From: Candidatus Heimdallarchaeota archaeon
GTDB lineage: Archaea; Asgardarchaeota; Heimdallarchaeia; Heimdallarchaeales; Heimdallarchaeaceae
Direction: 5' to 3'
Length of the DNA: 41,666 nucleotides
NCBI GenBank assembly: GCA_023705905.1
Contig: BPTK01000007.1
Coordinates: 1-41,666, forward strand
Shown piece by piece: positions 31,996-41,666 of this stretch; the stretch's first letter is position 1, and every line of letters begins with the position of its first letter. Both the position numbers and the translations under genes were made by a program. The notes below the pieces were generated by a model. The model made no database searches. It was not told the DNA's origin and worked only from the letters and a program-made list of their open reading frames with translations.

Positions 31996-32988
31996 CTAAT
32001 TGTTATCTAAATAGGAGATTTCAAACAATGGCATCTCTTTATCGGACCAGAAGGATTGGTTGTCAATCAAGTATTTCATTAGATAACCTGTCAAATCAGA
32101 TTCTGATATATTAGCACCTTTATTCTCTCTCAATCCTTGTATTTCCATGATGAATTCCGTTAATAATTTCATCAATAAACTGGCACCCTTTATTTCTTTA
32201 TTCTGATCAATCATATTTGTCATCAACCAACAGGATGTTTGATTGTCAGCAGCCATTACTACTTGTCGCCCGTTAAGAGTCATATAGTCAAGAATTGACT
32301 CATTACCAGATGCAAATTTGTAGCGAATGACAGGAAACATCCCTTCAGTATCATTAATTACGGATGGAGTGCGAATTCTTGCTTCAATTATACCATTATC
32401 AGTTTTAAGATAAGCAACAAAAGACTCTACAGATACTCCTGTGCTAATTAGATTTGTGATAATTGTGTTAGCTAACCAATCAATTGTTTTATTTAGATTT
32501 TCACCAGTAATCGGAGATACATTTAAACATTCAATCAATTGTCGAGGAGATGAAGATTTAAACAAATTGGAAACCTCATTGATTTCTTTCTGGTTAATCT
32601 TTTTATTCCATGTATTAATTAAAACAAGTATTGGTGAATCTTTCTTAATCCATTTCAAGGAACGAGTGAACCACTTCTTTGATTCTTTAATCTGATGTTC
32701 TTTAGTTGCATCAACAACAAAAATAAGCGCATCGGAACGAGAGATATAACTAGGCCAAAGAGAGTTTCGAAAAGGTTCTTTACCTCCCAAATCTGTCAAA
32801 CCAAGCTTCAATCCATTGATATTGACTAGTTCTTGATTAATACCATATGTTGAGTAGGTTTCAGTAATCTCTTCGTTAAGGAGCTTGTTGATAATAGTAG
32901 TTTTCCCAACACCGTCTAATCCAGCGACTGATATAGAAACATCTCTATCATCTGACAACCAAGTTGAATTTGAATTAAGATCTAACAA
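31996..32988 (-). CDS. Arf-like small GTPase with extra C-terminal domain
   Basis: The 330-residue protein begins with a TTG start, since no in-frame ATG is close. Residues 17-180 form a small-GTPase domain of Arf/SR-beta style. Walker A is GLDGVGKT (23-30), the switch I Thr is near residue 47 (YSTYGIN), and switch II is DLGGK (66-70). The G4 position reads NTWN (125-128) instead of NKxD, and G5 is SPITGEN. The catalytic Gln expected after DLGG is Lys. About 150 C-terminal residues (VESFVAYLKTDNGIIEARI ... ASLLMKLLTEFIMEIQGL) form an additional alpha/beta domain that could be longin- or roadblock-like. It is a eukaryotic-signature protein typical of Asgard archaea; its partner is unknown. Confidence 0.8.
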   Translation of the reverse strand: MLDLNSNSTWLSDDRDVSISVAGLDGVGKTTIINKLLNEEITETYSTYGINQELVNINGLKLGLTDLGGKEPFRNSLWPSYISRSDALIFVVDATKEHQIKESKKWFTRSLKWIKKDSPILVLINTWNKKINQKEINEVSNLFKSSSPRQLIECLNVSPITGENLNKTIDWLANTIITNLISTGVSVESFVAYLKTDNGIIEARIRTPSVINDTEGMFPVIRYKFASGNESILDYMTLNGRQVVMAADNQTSCWLMTNMIDQNKEIKGASLLMKLLTEFIMEIQGLRENKGANISESDLTGYLMKYLIDNQSFWSDKEMPLFEISYLDNN

Positions 32989-38074: not shown

Positions 38075-39103
38075 ATGGATAAATTGGAATTGTTACTTAA
38101 CACATTCAAAGGGAGGAATACAGAATATCCTTTGTTCAGTTTGTGGAAACATTTTCCTCATGATGACAGGCACTATGAGAGATTAGCTGAAGCTCACATT
38201 CAATTCTATGAGCATCATCAATTCGATTTGATGAAAATATCTCCTCATGGAAGATATCCTGTTGTAGATTATGGATGTAAGGTAGCAAAAGAATTTGACC
38301 CAATTACTGGCAGTACTAGTTGTGAAGAATGTACAATACACAGTATTGAGGACTGGGAGGCATTGGAACAAGTCAATGTAAATGACGGAGAATTTGGTGA
38401 CCAAGTTAAAACGGTCAAAATACTTGGTAAAAAACTAGAAGAGTTACCTAAAATGATGACAATATTTTCTCCTCTGATGGTTGCTTCTAAAATGGATAAT
38501 AATCTTGTAGCACATCTGCGAGAGGATAAGGTGAAATTGAAAAACGCACTTTTTGTAATATACAGAGATCTTTTAGAATTTGCGCAATCATCAATTGATG
38601 CTGGTGCTAACGGTTTATTCATTGCATCACAACATTTCCGAAAAACCGATCTAACTTGGGAAGAAGTAGACAATTTCGAGATTTATTTTATCAAGAAATT
38701 GATACAAGAAACTAGGAAGAAATCAGATTTCAACATCATACACATTCATGGACAAGAAATCAATTTCAATAAAGTTGTAGAAAATATTGATGCAGATGGT
38801 CTTAATTGGCATGACCAACTGACATGGCCACCAATACCAGAAGCAGCGGATATCTTTTCGAAGGGTCTCCTAGCTGGAATAGATGAAACCCAAAGTTTAG
38901 TTGATGGGGATGAGGAGAAAATAAAGAATAACATACAAGAAGCTATAGAGATGTCTAAGAAGCATGAGAATAGAGTTATAATCTCACCAGGATGTGTAAT
39001 CCCTATTACTGCAACAGATGAATCCATTGAGATGATTTCAAAAACCATGCACAAATCAAGAAAGAGGGTTAAAAATGGCAGAAGAAGAGAAACAATCAGC
39101 TGA
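38075..39103 (+). CDS. uroporphyrinogen decarboxylase/MtaA-family protein
   Basis: This 342-residue TIM-barrel protein of the UROD superfamily shows SPLMVASKM, SIDAGANGLFIASQ, a IIHIHGQEI segment and a final SPGCVIP loop. In corrinoid methyltransferases such as MtaA and MtbA, zinc is held by H-x-C and a later Cys. Here the residues are His223-x-His225 and Cys307. It is therefore more like a metal-binding methyltransferase than a haem-pathway decarboxylase, but the cysteine-to-histidine change is unusual. The gene overlaps the next gene by 29 nt, so they are co-translated. It heads a run with a homologue of a C1-cofactor enzyme. Confidence 0.75.
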   Translation: MDKLELLLNTFKGRNTEYPLFSLWKHFPHDDRHYERLAEAHIQFYEHHQFDLMKISPHGRYPVVDYGCKVAKEFDPITGSTSCEECTIHSIEDWEALEQVNVNDGEFGDQVKTVKILGKKLEELPKMMTIFSPLMVASKMDNNLVAHLREDKVKLKNALFVIYRDLLEFAQSSIDAGANGLFIASQHFRKTDLTWEEVDNFEIYFIKKLIQETRKKSDFNIIHIHGQEINFNKVVENIDADGLNWHDQLTWPPIPEAADIFSKGLLAGIDETQSLVDGDEEKIKNNIQEAIEMSKKHENRVIISPGCVIPITATDESIEMISKTMHKSRKRVKNGRRRETIS

Positions 39104-39749
39104 GAAGAATAATGTTGAAACGATTTTAACAAAAAAATCAACAAGATTTGGATGGAGAGATTTCACTCTTAACCTAGTCTTTACTCTTATTATGGTCGCA
39201 AGTTTCATTGTCTTTATATTTATTCAGCCCCCAGAAGAGGGAGATTTAGCATCGTGGTTTTCATTAATCCTTGTTATTGTATTACCCTTGTTAATCTTTG
39301 GGAATCGATTAGTAAGAGAATCAATCTATCAGTATGATTTCATTATGATTAGTGGAAACTCTATCAAATATCGTTCAACACCTCTTCTCTTTACTGGAAT
39401 TAGAACGAAAAAAAACGAAGTTGATATACGAGACATAAGAAAATTCGGAATTTCTAAAATTCCTAGAAAATTCTCACTTGATTTGCGAAAATATAAGAAT
39501 AAAGCAATGTTAATACTTAATCTCAAAGACGGTAAAGAACACTTATTCGGCGAATATTTCCTTAACGATGATTTAGTCGAAGTTTGTGTATACATCAATA
39601 AAATTTATCCCAGAGCTAAGTTGATAACTAATCTTGGAGAGGAATATCCACAACTTGCGGAACTGCAGAAAAAAGTTGCATCATCAAAGAAGGTTAAAGA
39701 ATTAGAGGATGATGGAGAACCTGAAGGCGTAGAAATTCGACGAAAGTAG
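39075..39749 (+). CDS. membrane protein with two N-terminal helices and a PH-like domain
   Basis: The 224-residue protein overlaps the UROD-like gene by 29 nt. Residues about 28-50 (FTLNLVFTLIMVASFIVFIFI) and 62-80 (FSLILVIVLPLLIFGN) are membrane helices. A cytosolic beta-rich region (about 90-190) follows, with strands FIMISGNSIKYRS, DIRDIRKFGIS and AMLILNLKDGKEHLFGEYFL. This suggests a bacterial-PH-like (bPH) domain; the tail is acidic and basic. I infer a membrane anchor or scaffold; no catalytic residues are seen. Confidence 0.6.
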   Translation: MAEEEKQSAEKNNVETILTKKSTRFGWRDFTLNLVFTLIMVASFIVFIFIQPPEEGDLASWFSLILVIVLPLLIFGNRLVRESIYQYDFIMISGNSIKYRSTPLLFTGIRTKKNEVDIRDIRKFGISKIPRKFSLDLRKYKNKAMLILNLKDGKEHLFGEYFLNDDLVEVCVYINKIYPRAKLITNLGEEYPQLAELQKKVASSKKVKELEDDGEPEGVEIRRK

Positions 39750-39798
39750 GCGGGAGTATCTCTACTTTTATTAATGATTTCTTCGAAATAATTACGTG

Positions 39799-40860
39799 AT
39801 GGCATCCAATCAATCAGCAGCTTTTATGGCAACAAAAAAGAACATTGCAGTTCTTGATTTTGGTCTAACAATACATAGAATCATCATTATAGACCCAGCT
39901 CATCCAGAAGAACCATTAAATTTTCAAAAAATTTATTTGCCTTTGAGAACAAAAAAGGAAGAATTGGAAGGCATTCTTAAAACATTATTACGTTCCTATT
40001 CTGATTATCACATTCGAAAATTCATCATTACTACTTCAAGCTCTTTCTACTCTTCTGCGAAAGAAACAATTGATTTTGTTATTCAATCTGTTACAAAATT
40101 CATTCAAAGCATGAATATGTTGTGCTATACTATAGATGGTGAGTTTATATCAATTGAAGAAGCAATAAAAATCCCTGAGAAAATAGTAGCAGCGGGGTGG
40201 AAAGCATTAGGAGAGGGTATTTGGGAGTTAGTGGGAAAAGATGCCTTAATCGTTGACTTCTCCACACGAACAACTAGTTTCCTACCAATAAAAGAAGGTA
40301 AGATCCTATCAATTTCATCGTCTGATCATGATAGAATGAAAAACAGTGAATTGTTGTATTATGGACTTCTTGAAACAAATGCAGCATTCATAAAACCAAA
40401 ATTTGAATACAAAGGTGAGGTATTCAATCTACCTTTTGAACCTCACGCAGTATCAGCAGATGTTTTCCTTATAACAAACGATTTACCTCAAACAGACTAT
40501 ATTATTGATACCCCTGATAAAAAAGCAAAATTCAAGGAAGATGCAATAAATAGGATACGAAACATGTTATGTATAGTAGACGAATGTTTGGAAGAAGAAG
40601 ATTTAGTCGAAATAGCAGAACAACTTAAATCTCATATGCTTGAAGAAATTAATACAAATATTAAAAGAAAATTAGAGGAGTATAATTTAAACAGAGTGAT
40701 AATAACTGGTTCTGGAACAAATGTACTCTACCAATATTTAAAAAATAAGATGATATATGGTGAATTAATACAAGCAACAGATATAATAAAATCAGCTGAA
40801 ATAAATCCAGCATATTGTATCGCATATCTTTATGCAAAAAAGATGATTGTGAATGGATGA
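39799..40860 (+). CDS. COG1548/MfnF-like hydantoinase-fold ATPase
   Basis: Starting at ATG 39799 (a TATA-like TTTATTAA lies about 30 bp upstream, fitting a leaderless mRNA; GTG 39796 is the track start), the protein has 353 residues. WKALGEGIWELVG, ALIVDFSTRTTSFLPIKEGKI, ELLYYGLLETN and PHAVSADVFLITNDLP resemble the family called the H4MPT-linked C1-transfer pathway protein. The DTPDKKAKFKEDAINRIRNMLC segment does so as well. This is the MfnF family of methanofuran biosynthesis. The first phosphate loop (LDFGLTIHR) differs from the usual DIGGAN. It is related to hydantoinase/actin-fold ATPases. The next gene overlaps its stop by 8 nt. Confidence 0.7.
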   Translation: MASNQSAAFMATKKNIAVLDFGLTIHRIIIIDPAHPEEPLNFQKIYLPLRTKKEELEGILKTLLRSYSDYHIRKFIITTSSSFYSSAKETIDFVIQSVTKFIQSMNMLCYTIDGEFISIEEAIKIPEKIVAAGWKALGEGIWELVGKDALIVDFSTRTTSFLPIKEGKILSISSSDHDRMKNSELLYYGLLETNAAFIKPKFEYKGEVFNLPFEPHAVSADVFLITNDLPQTDYIIDTPDKKAKFKEDAINRIRNMLCIVDECLEEEDLVEIAEQLKSHMLEEINTNIKRKLEEYNLNRVIITGSGTNVLYQYLKNKMIYGELIQATDIIKSAEINPAYCIAYLYAKKMIVNG

Positions 40861-41666
40861 AAGATCGGATCTTCGAAATAGAATCAATGTGATGTTGTTT
40901 CACTTTGACCAAAGATTAGGACCTAGGTTACTCTTTAACGTAGCTGAAATACAAGATACAAGAATAACAGCTTCTCTGACCAGACTAATGGATTTCAATT
41001 TCTTAGAAGAAATGAAAGCATTTGTCAATGCAATGGCAAACGTAGTTTACTCTAGTATGTTTTTCTCAATTTCTAATCCAATGGCTAGGGGAGGAGTAGA
41101 ACAATTCATGCTTTCCTTTGTTATATTTGACCCTACAATTACTGAGTATCTCACTATTTCTTCACTCGAAGAGGAAATGAATAAAACAATCAGCAGACTG
41201 ATTGTATTATCAGAAATGTTTATTGTTATAACTTATGCGAATCCTATTCTAGATGATTTTCCAGAGGTGGAAGATTGCTTAGCTTCTCTTAAAGACAATG
41301 CAATCAGTATTTTTCAAGAATTGTTCTATGGCCAATTTGAGGGTCGAAAAGACGCAATTTCACAGATTCTAGGTAAAATAGGAAATGATGCCGGTAAAAA
41401 GATAATTATGCGTCATCAACCCAAACAAGATGATTCTTTGCGAGTATATCTCAACACAATTCTCACATCTCCTATTGTTTCTAGATGGGGAGAGATTAGT
41501 GTTTTACATTTTGATCCTGATGAAAAGGTTGCTACAGTTTCATTAAAAAACTCAATCTGGACAGAATCGCTAGGTGTAATTGCTACCAAAGCTTGTGCTT
41601 ATGTGGAAGGAATGTTAGAAGCTATATTCAGTCAACTATTAAACGAACCAATTGTCTGCAGTGAGA
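40853..41666 (+). CDS. longin/roadblock-like plus V4R-domain protein, cut by window end
   Basis: This gene is missing from the ORF track because it runs off the right edge; 271 codons are visible from ATG 40853, overlapping the previous stop. The N-terminal half starts INVMLFHFDQRLGPRLLF, the strand-turn-strand opening seen in longin/roadblock-like regulatory domains ('F-x-x-x-G-P'). The C-terminal half (SQILGKIGNDAGKK, WGEISVLHFDPDEKVATVSL, WTESLGVIATKACAYVEGMLEAIFSQLL) reads as a V4R domain, the family that shares its fold with the Bet3/TRAPPC3 subunits of the TRAPP tether. I infer a cytosolic sensor or tether component. The remaining C-terminus is outside the window. Confidence 0.6.
   Translation, partial: MDERSDLRNRINVMLFHFDQRLGPRLLFNVAEIQDTRITASLTRLMDFNFLEEMKAFVNAMANVVYSSMFFSISNPMARGGVEQFMLSFVIFDPTITEYLTISSLEEEMNKTISRLIVLSEMFIVITYANPILDDFPEVEDCLASLKDNAISIFQELFYGQFEGRKDAISQILGKIGNDAGKKIIMRHQPKQDDSLRVYLNTILTSPIVSRWGEISVLHFDPDEKVATVSLKNSIWTESLGVIATKACAYVEGMLEAIFSQLLNEPIVCSE

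Follow-up and report, generated by a model that had tools for sequence, protein, structure and literature searches.

In eukaryotes, the GEF TRAPP and the GAPs GATOR1/FLCN are both built on longin dimers. The asCOGs already include an 'NPRL2-like longin domain' (PMC9834061), and Tran et al. (2024; PMC10933270, Fig. 9g) presented an AF2 model of the Heimdall protein MBD3190748.1 with an N-terminal longin and a C-terminal TRAPPC3 domain, and pointed out its parallel with TRAPP. The first-pass annotation of the DNA studied here described a fusion of a longin/roadblock-like and a V4R domain as a striking evolutionary link to TRAPP. A longin and a V4R domain do occur in one archaeal protein, but a Heimdall longin-TRAPPC3 fusion was thus published in 2024 and the architecture is not new. 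The protein described here is predicted to consist of three parts, an N-terminal longin, a V4R domain and, at the C-terminus, a four-cysteine domain. Neither this three-part family, nor an NPRL2-type longin with an invariant arginine joined to V4R, nor the corresponding operon was found in the open-access literature, and the family appears to be an undescribed variant in its NPRL2-type longin, extra cysteine domain and operon.

The window, i.e. the whole stretch of DNA analysed, is the entire contig BPTK01000007.1 (41,666 nt, hereafter C7) of a genome of 3.74 Mb in 396 contigs. It ends in a genuine Heimdallarchaeal gene which is cut by the contig end. The open reading frame at 40853..41665 (+) starts with ATG and has 271 codons, with FDQRLGPRLLF at residues 18-28, and these 5' codons of the longin-V4R gene (40853..41666, +) run off the contig, as had been noted from the sequence. 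The remainder is found at the beginning of contig C90 of the same assembly, which opens in frame with residues 275-415 (G000:C90:3-428, locus L080). Alignment of both contig ends with the homologous locus L034 leaves a gap of about 6 nt between C7 and C90, so the split is an assembly gap and not biology. Downstream of the C90 fragment are genes encoding a formyl-THF ligase and an AN1-finger membrane protein, and the same genes follow longin-V4R in its relatives, where the full-length proteins, such as that of L051 in Ca. Heimdallarchaeum endolithica, have about 409-416 amino acids. Orthologues have 61-97% identity over the full 271 residues, with E-values as low as 1e-171, and their presence in many genomes rules out a chance ORF or a translation in the wrong frame.

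The gene was found in 22 other searched genomes of the same GTDB family, in two of which it is present just as a fragment at a contig end, and a homologue with 29% identity was present in a single sister-family genome. Nearly all of the sequence relatives are named Candidatus Heimdallarchaeota or Heimdallarchaeum, one being an 'Asgard group archaeon'. Among 228 genomes of the phylum, the three-part protein occurs in Heimdallarchaeaceae-type genomes (three genera) and in the one sister-family genome. V4R was present in 195 of the 228 genomes and the NPRL2-type longin family in 135, and in each Heimdallarchaeaceae genome the three-part protein is the only member of this longin family detected.

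The N-terminal 155 residues (40853..41317, +) had no match in a Pfam search, and their assignment as a longin domain of the NPRL2/FLCN type is based on AF2, Foldseek and the family alignment. With an alignment of this region and other Asgard longins (23 rows), AF2 gave a model with pLDDT 87 and pTM 0.85, in which the order of elements, b1-b2-a1-b3-b4-b5-a2-a3, is the canonical one for longins. A roadblock/LC7 fold, the other reading suggested from the opening motif, is ruled out by this strand and helix order, the N-terminal helix being short (residues 2-8). The top Foldseek matches of the model in PDB were longins, and all 17 matches at E<=1e-3 were GATOR1/SEA (NPRL2/3 type) or FLCN/FNIP/Lst4 structures or a Lokiarchaeal longin, followed by C9orf72-SMCR8 and DENND10. 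The TM-scores to NPRL2 and FLCN were moderate (0.5-0.6). None of the TRAPPC1/2/4 (Bet5/Trs20/Trs23) longins was among the best 50 PDB matches, and a TRAPP-type longin was rejected on this ground. When the longin profile was compared with PDB sequences, NPRL2 was the sole longin matched, weakly (E 1.4), at FHPTLGPKITYQVPE, with the NPRL2 start FFSEFHPTLGPKITYQVPE aligned to LFHFDQRLGPRLLFNVAE. By hhalign, the match of the profile to NPRL2 had an E of 1e-3 and a probability of just 21%; the human NPRL2 query was identical, letter for letter, to 6CES. The predicted longin thus resembles the NPRL2/folliculin type of nutrient signalling rather than the TRAPP type.

Arg79 (codon at 41087..41089, +) is in the loop between the predicted strands b4 (residues 64-74) and b5 (82-92). 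It was present in all 80 Asgard longins retrieved by profile, including all 40 which were outside the set used for building the profile, whereas the adjoining Gly80 varies. Arg78 of NPRL2 was one column off Arg79 in four MAFFT modes, so that the positional equivalence is approximate; on these alignments Arg79 may correspond to NPRL2 Arg78, which is in the matching stretch. Arg147 of SMCR8 is an arginine finger, seen in a trapped complex, and arginines of NPRL2 and FLCN have been proposed to act in the same way (PMC8213707).

The C-terminal claim of the first-pass annotation, a V4R domain, also holds. Residues ~137-290 (41261..41666, +, the window reaching just residue 271) are predicted to form a V4R/Bet3-fold domain, as judged from Pfam, profile-profile comparison and fold. 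On the window fragment the Pfam V4R match (PF02830, residues 229-271, E 4e-4) was below the cut-off because the gene is truncated. V4R was matched in 13 of the 13 full-length members (best E 3e-8), the first one scanned having 29.8 bits against a cut-off of 31. The profile of this domain matched that of other Asgard V4R domains over 122 columns with an E of 2.5e-15 (hhalign), and the NCBIfam match was to the V4R region of MsvR. No match to Pfam TRAPP (PF04051) was observed at E<=1 in the full-length members. The AF2 model of the whole chain, made with an alignment of the 13 full-length sequences, was of moderate quality (pLDDT 71), and in it residues 137-290 form helices followed by bb-helix-bb, as expected of V4R/TRAPPC3. 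Extension of the contig and fold prediction of both halves, as proposed with the earlier claims, therefore gave a longin and a V4R domain rather than other folds. The Foldseek matches of the V4R domain were TRAPPC3 (Naegleria, Thorarchaeota and mammals), PoxR/MopR and MJ1460, about equal and near E 1e-3, and a viral library gave nothing useful. Of the structures named for comparison in the first-pass annotation, TRAPPC3 and V4R were found among the neighbours of the V4R domain, and TRAPPC2/4 were absent from the best 50 of the longin.

The third region, residues ~295-415, lies beyond the window and was missing from the first description. It contains the invariant cysteines C367, C378, C381 and C403 in the 13 full-length sequences, and its predicted order of helices and strands is V4R-like. 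As a second V4R domain it had no support by sequence, there being no significant profile match to V4R, and it is left unassigned. Elsewhere in the same genome, L001:811-2376 (+) (G000:C133) codes for a protein of 521 amino acids that combines two V4R domains with an N-terminus which, by eye, is thioredoxin-like, and similar proteins are present in other genomes of the class.

At least two further classes of longin-V4R fusion occur in the phylum, among V4R proteins which were sampled in part. In three other Asgard families, L146, L147 and L148 code for fusions of 308-326 amino acids with an NPRL2-type longin. Fusions of ~300 amino acids are coded by L149-L157 in family f28 and in two Heimdall genera, for example at L151:638-1510 (-) in the Heimdallarchaeum genome G022 and at L153:747-1646 (+). 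The N-terminus of the L151 protein is weakly similar to MON1/FUZ/HPS1 longins (PF19036, E 0.02) and its V4R domain weakly TRAPP-like (PF04051, E 0.01). Judged by sequence, a TRAPP-like ancestor would more plausibly be sought in the L151-type class than in the three-part protein, and MBD3190748.1 may belong to the ~300-amino-acid class (L151, L152) instead.

NPRL2-type longins of other Asgards are fused directly to GTPase domains (L086, L093, L094 and L098, P-loop read by eye), and others are joined to regions that contain no GTPase, receiver-like and PAS-like ones among them, the domain names being partly read by eye. In sister families of the order, L028, L030 and L031 have a receiver-like (response-regulator) N-terminus and a C-terminal NPRL2-type longin. 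Families f5 and f7 also have matches to the NPRL2-type longin with 'P(E/Q)ARGG' (L109-L116, L120, L121 and L124), within open reading frames whose length ranges from about 560 to about 8800 codons, which suggests giant proteins bearing a longin domain.

The longin-V4R gene follows three other genes of a conserved operon. The gene upstream (39796..40860, +), whose last 8 bp are shared with the start of longin-V4R, codes for an ASKHA/hydantoinase-like protein (PF01968) related to TIGR03123/MfnF (E 1e-49), possibly a repurposed C1-pathway ASKHA protein. It is preceded by a gene for a protein with hydrophobic N-terminal segments (39075..39749, +, read from the sequence), which is probably membrane-anchored and has no family match, and by one for a URO-D fold protein (38075..39103, +; PF01208, E 3e-23) related to the MtaA/MtbA methylcobamide methyltransferases (PRK06252, E 4e-17). 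The NCBIfam assignments of these neighbours, TIGR03123 and PRK06252 included, are under the curated cut-offs. The order URO-D/MtaA-like, membrane protein, MfnF-like and longin-V4R was kept in every relative with enough flanking sequence, in three genera, the operon carrying an insertion at L054. No match to the operon genes was detected in the 3.8-kb locus of the sister-family homologue (L026), and the operon has no GTPase gene. The genome has 36 matches to the Arf profile and 17 to the Rag/Gtr profile, the two sets overlapping. Rag-like and Arf-like GTPases are coded, for example, on contigs C58 and C32. An Arf-like GTPase with a C-terminal extension of ~150 amino acids is coded at 31996-32988 (-) and is 8-11 kb from longin-V4R in several genomes of the same genus; this constant place is explained by general synteny within the genus and was not counted as evidence.

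The reading which we tentatively prefer, at somewhat less than an even chance, is that of a Heimdall signalling protein in which the longin would dock on a Rag/Arf-type GTPase or speed up its GTP hydrolysis and a ligand of V4R would gate this activity, making the protein a relative of the GATOR1/FLCN GAPs and not a TRAPP GEF. A role in GTPase regulation is proposed because the same longin is fused to GTPase domains, NPRL2-like longins are among the asCOGs and the genome contains the Arf and Rag matches. The longin would bind a small GTPase of the Rag or Arf kind, and Arg79 could be inserted into the active site of this GTPase, resulting in faster GTP hydrolysis, or the longin might at least dock there. 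The longin would be gated by the V4R domain through binding of a small ligand, hydrophobic or similar to a tetrapyrrole, or of a redox-sensitive metal; sensing is proposed because of the V4R homology and the ligand cavities contained in V4R/TRAPPC3 (PMC10933270). The signal might come from C1/cobamide cofactor metabolism, since the operon suggests so. The complete form of this reading, a ligand-gated small-GTPase GAP in which an arginine-finger longin fused to V4R reports C1/cobamide status as a one-chain forerunner of the GATOR1/FLCN-FNIP Rag GAPs, appears rather unlikely. GAPs of the NPRL2/FLCN class act as longin heterodimers, and no partner longin was identified.

The link to TRAPP drawn in the first-pass annotation named both domain types correctly, but with a longin of the NPRL2/FLCN type and no Pfam TRAPP match it is weaker than was claimed. 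A one-chain TRAPP-like GEF, in which the longin (in the role of TRAPPC1/C4) and the Bet3-like domain (in that of TRAPPC3) exchange nucleotide on a Rab-like GTPase, would agree with the composition of TRAPP from longin and Bet3-fold subunits (PMC10933270) and with TRAPPC3 of Naegleria and Thorarchaeota being among the top fold matches of V4R. The nearest longin structures are of the other class, however, and no TRAPP-specific feature was found, so this activity is improbable; a GAP-like function is preferred because the structural neighbours and the conserved arginine both point to NPRL2/FLCN. Another possibility, if on balance doubtful, is a ligand or redox sensor or scaffold with neither GAP nor GEF activity, in which the longin would only dimerise or dock and V4R, together with the cysteine domain, would serve the C1 operon by sensing a metabolite, a cobamide or the redox state. 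Archaeal V4R relatives are sensors (cf. the NCBIfam match to MsvR), the same longin occurs with receiver-like, PAS-like and other regions lacking a GTPase, and the operon is metabolic, but this would leave unexplained the longin-GTPase fusions and the conservation of Arg79, which few residues of the longin family match in constancy. The operon order conserved in three genera would also suit a housekeeping assembly factor that chaperones, for example, either the corrinoid methyltransferase or the MfnF-like protein and uses its longin for protein-protein contact. The sister-family locus without detected operon genes and the otherwise regulatory appearance of the V4R and longin families speak against this function, which we regard as likewise improbable.

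A longin and V4R in one chain do not by themselves make a TRAPP ancestor, and that tempting misreading is corrected here. Parts such as a GATOR1/FLCN-type longin and a Bet3-fold sensor were, on the domain assignments above, already combined in Asgards, and the protein, single and expressible, allows one to ask if the arginine-finger GAP mechanism in nutrient signalling is older than eukaryotes. NPRL2 (GATOR1) and folliculin are its nearest solved longin folds and share the 'F...GP' opening motif and an arginine in the same b4-b5 loop region, but have only ~10-17% identity to the Heimdall longin, in which a GAP role is putative; they are not known to carry V4R and have C-terminal domains of another kind. 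The V4R proteins of PF02830 (MJ1460, MsvR, PoxR/MopR) are similar in fold, sequence profile and cysteine pattern (at 248/274/284), whereas MJ1460, PoxR and MsvR have no longin. Asgard TRAPPC3 (Thorarchaeota, 7YH3) and eukaryotic Bet3/TRAPPC3 have the same fold (Foldseek E ~1e-3) but are stand-alone proteins, and the Heimdall V4R domain is without a Pfam TRAPP match. MBD3190748.1 is likewise an Asgard (Heimdall) protein in which a longin at the N-terminus is combined with a V4R/TRAPPC3-fold domain; it was described as having two domains, whereas the three-part protein is ~120 residues longer and has four invariant cysteines, the two being set apart by description only.
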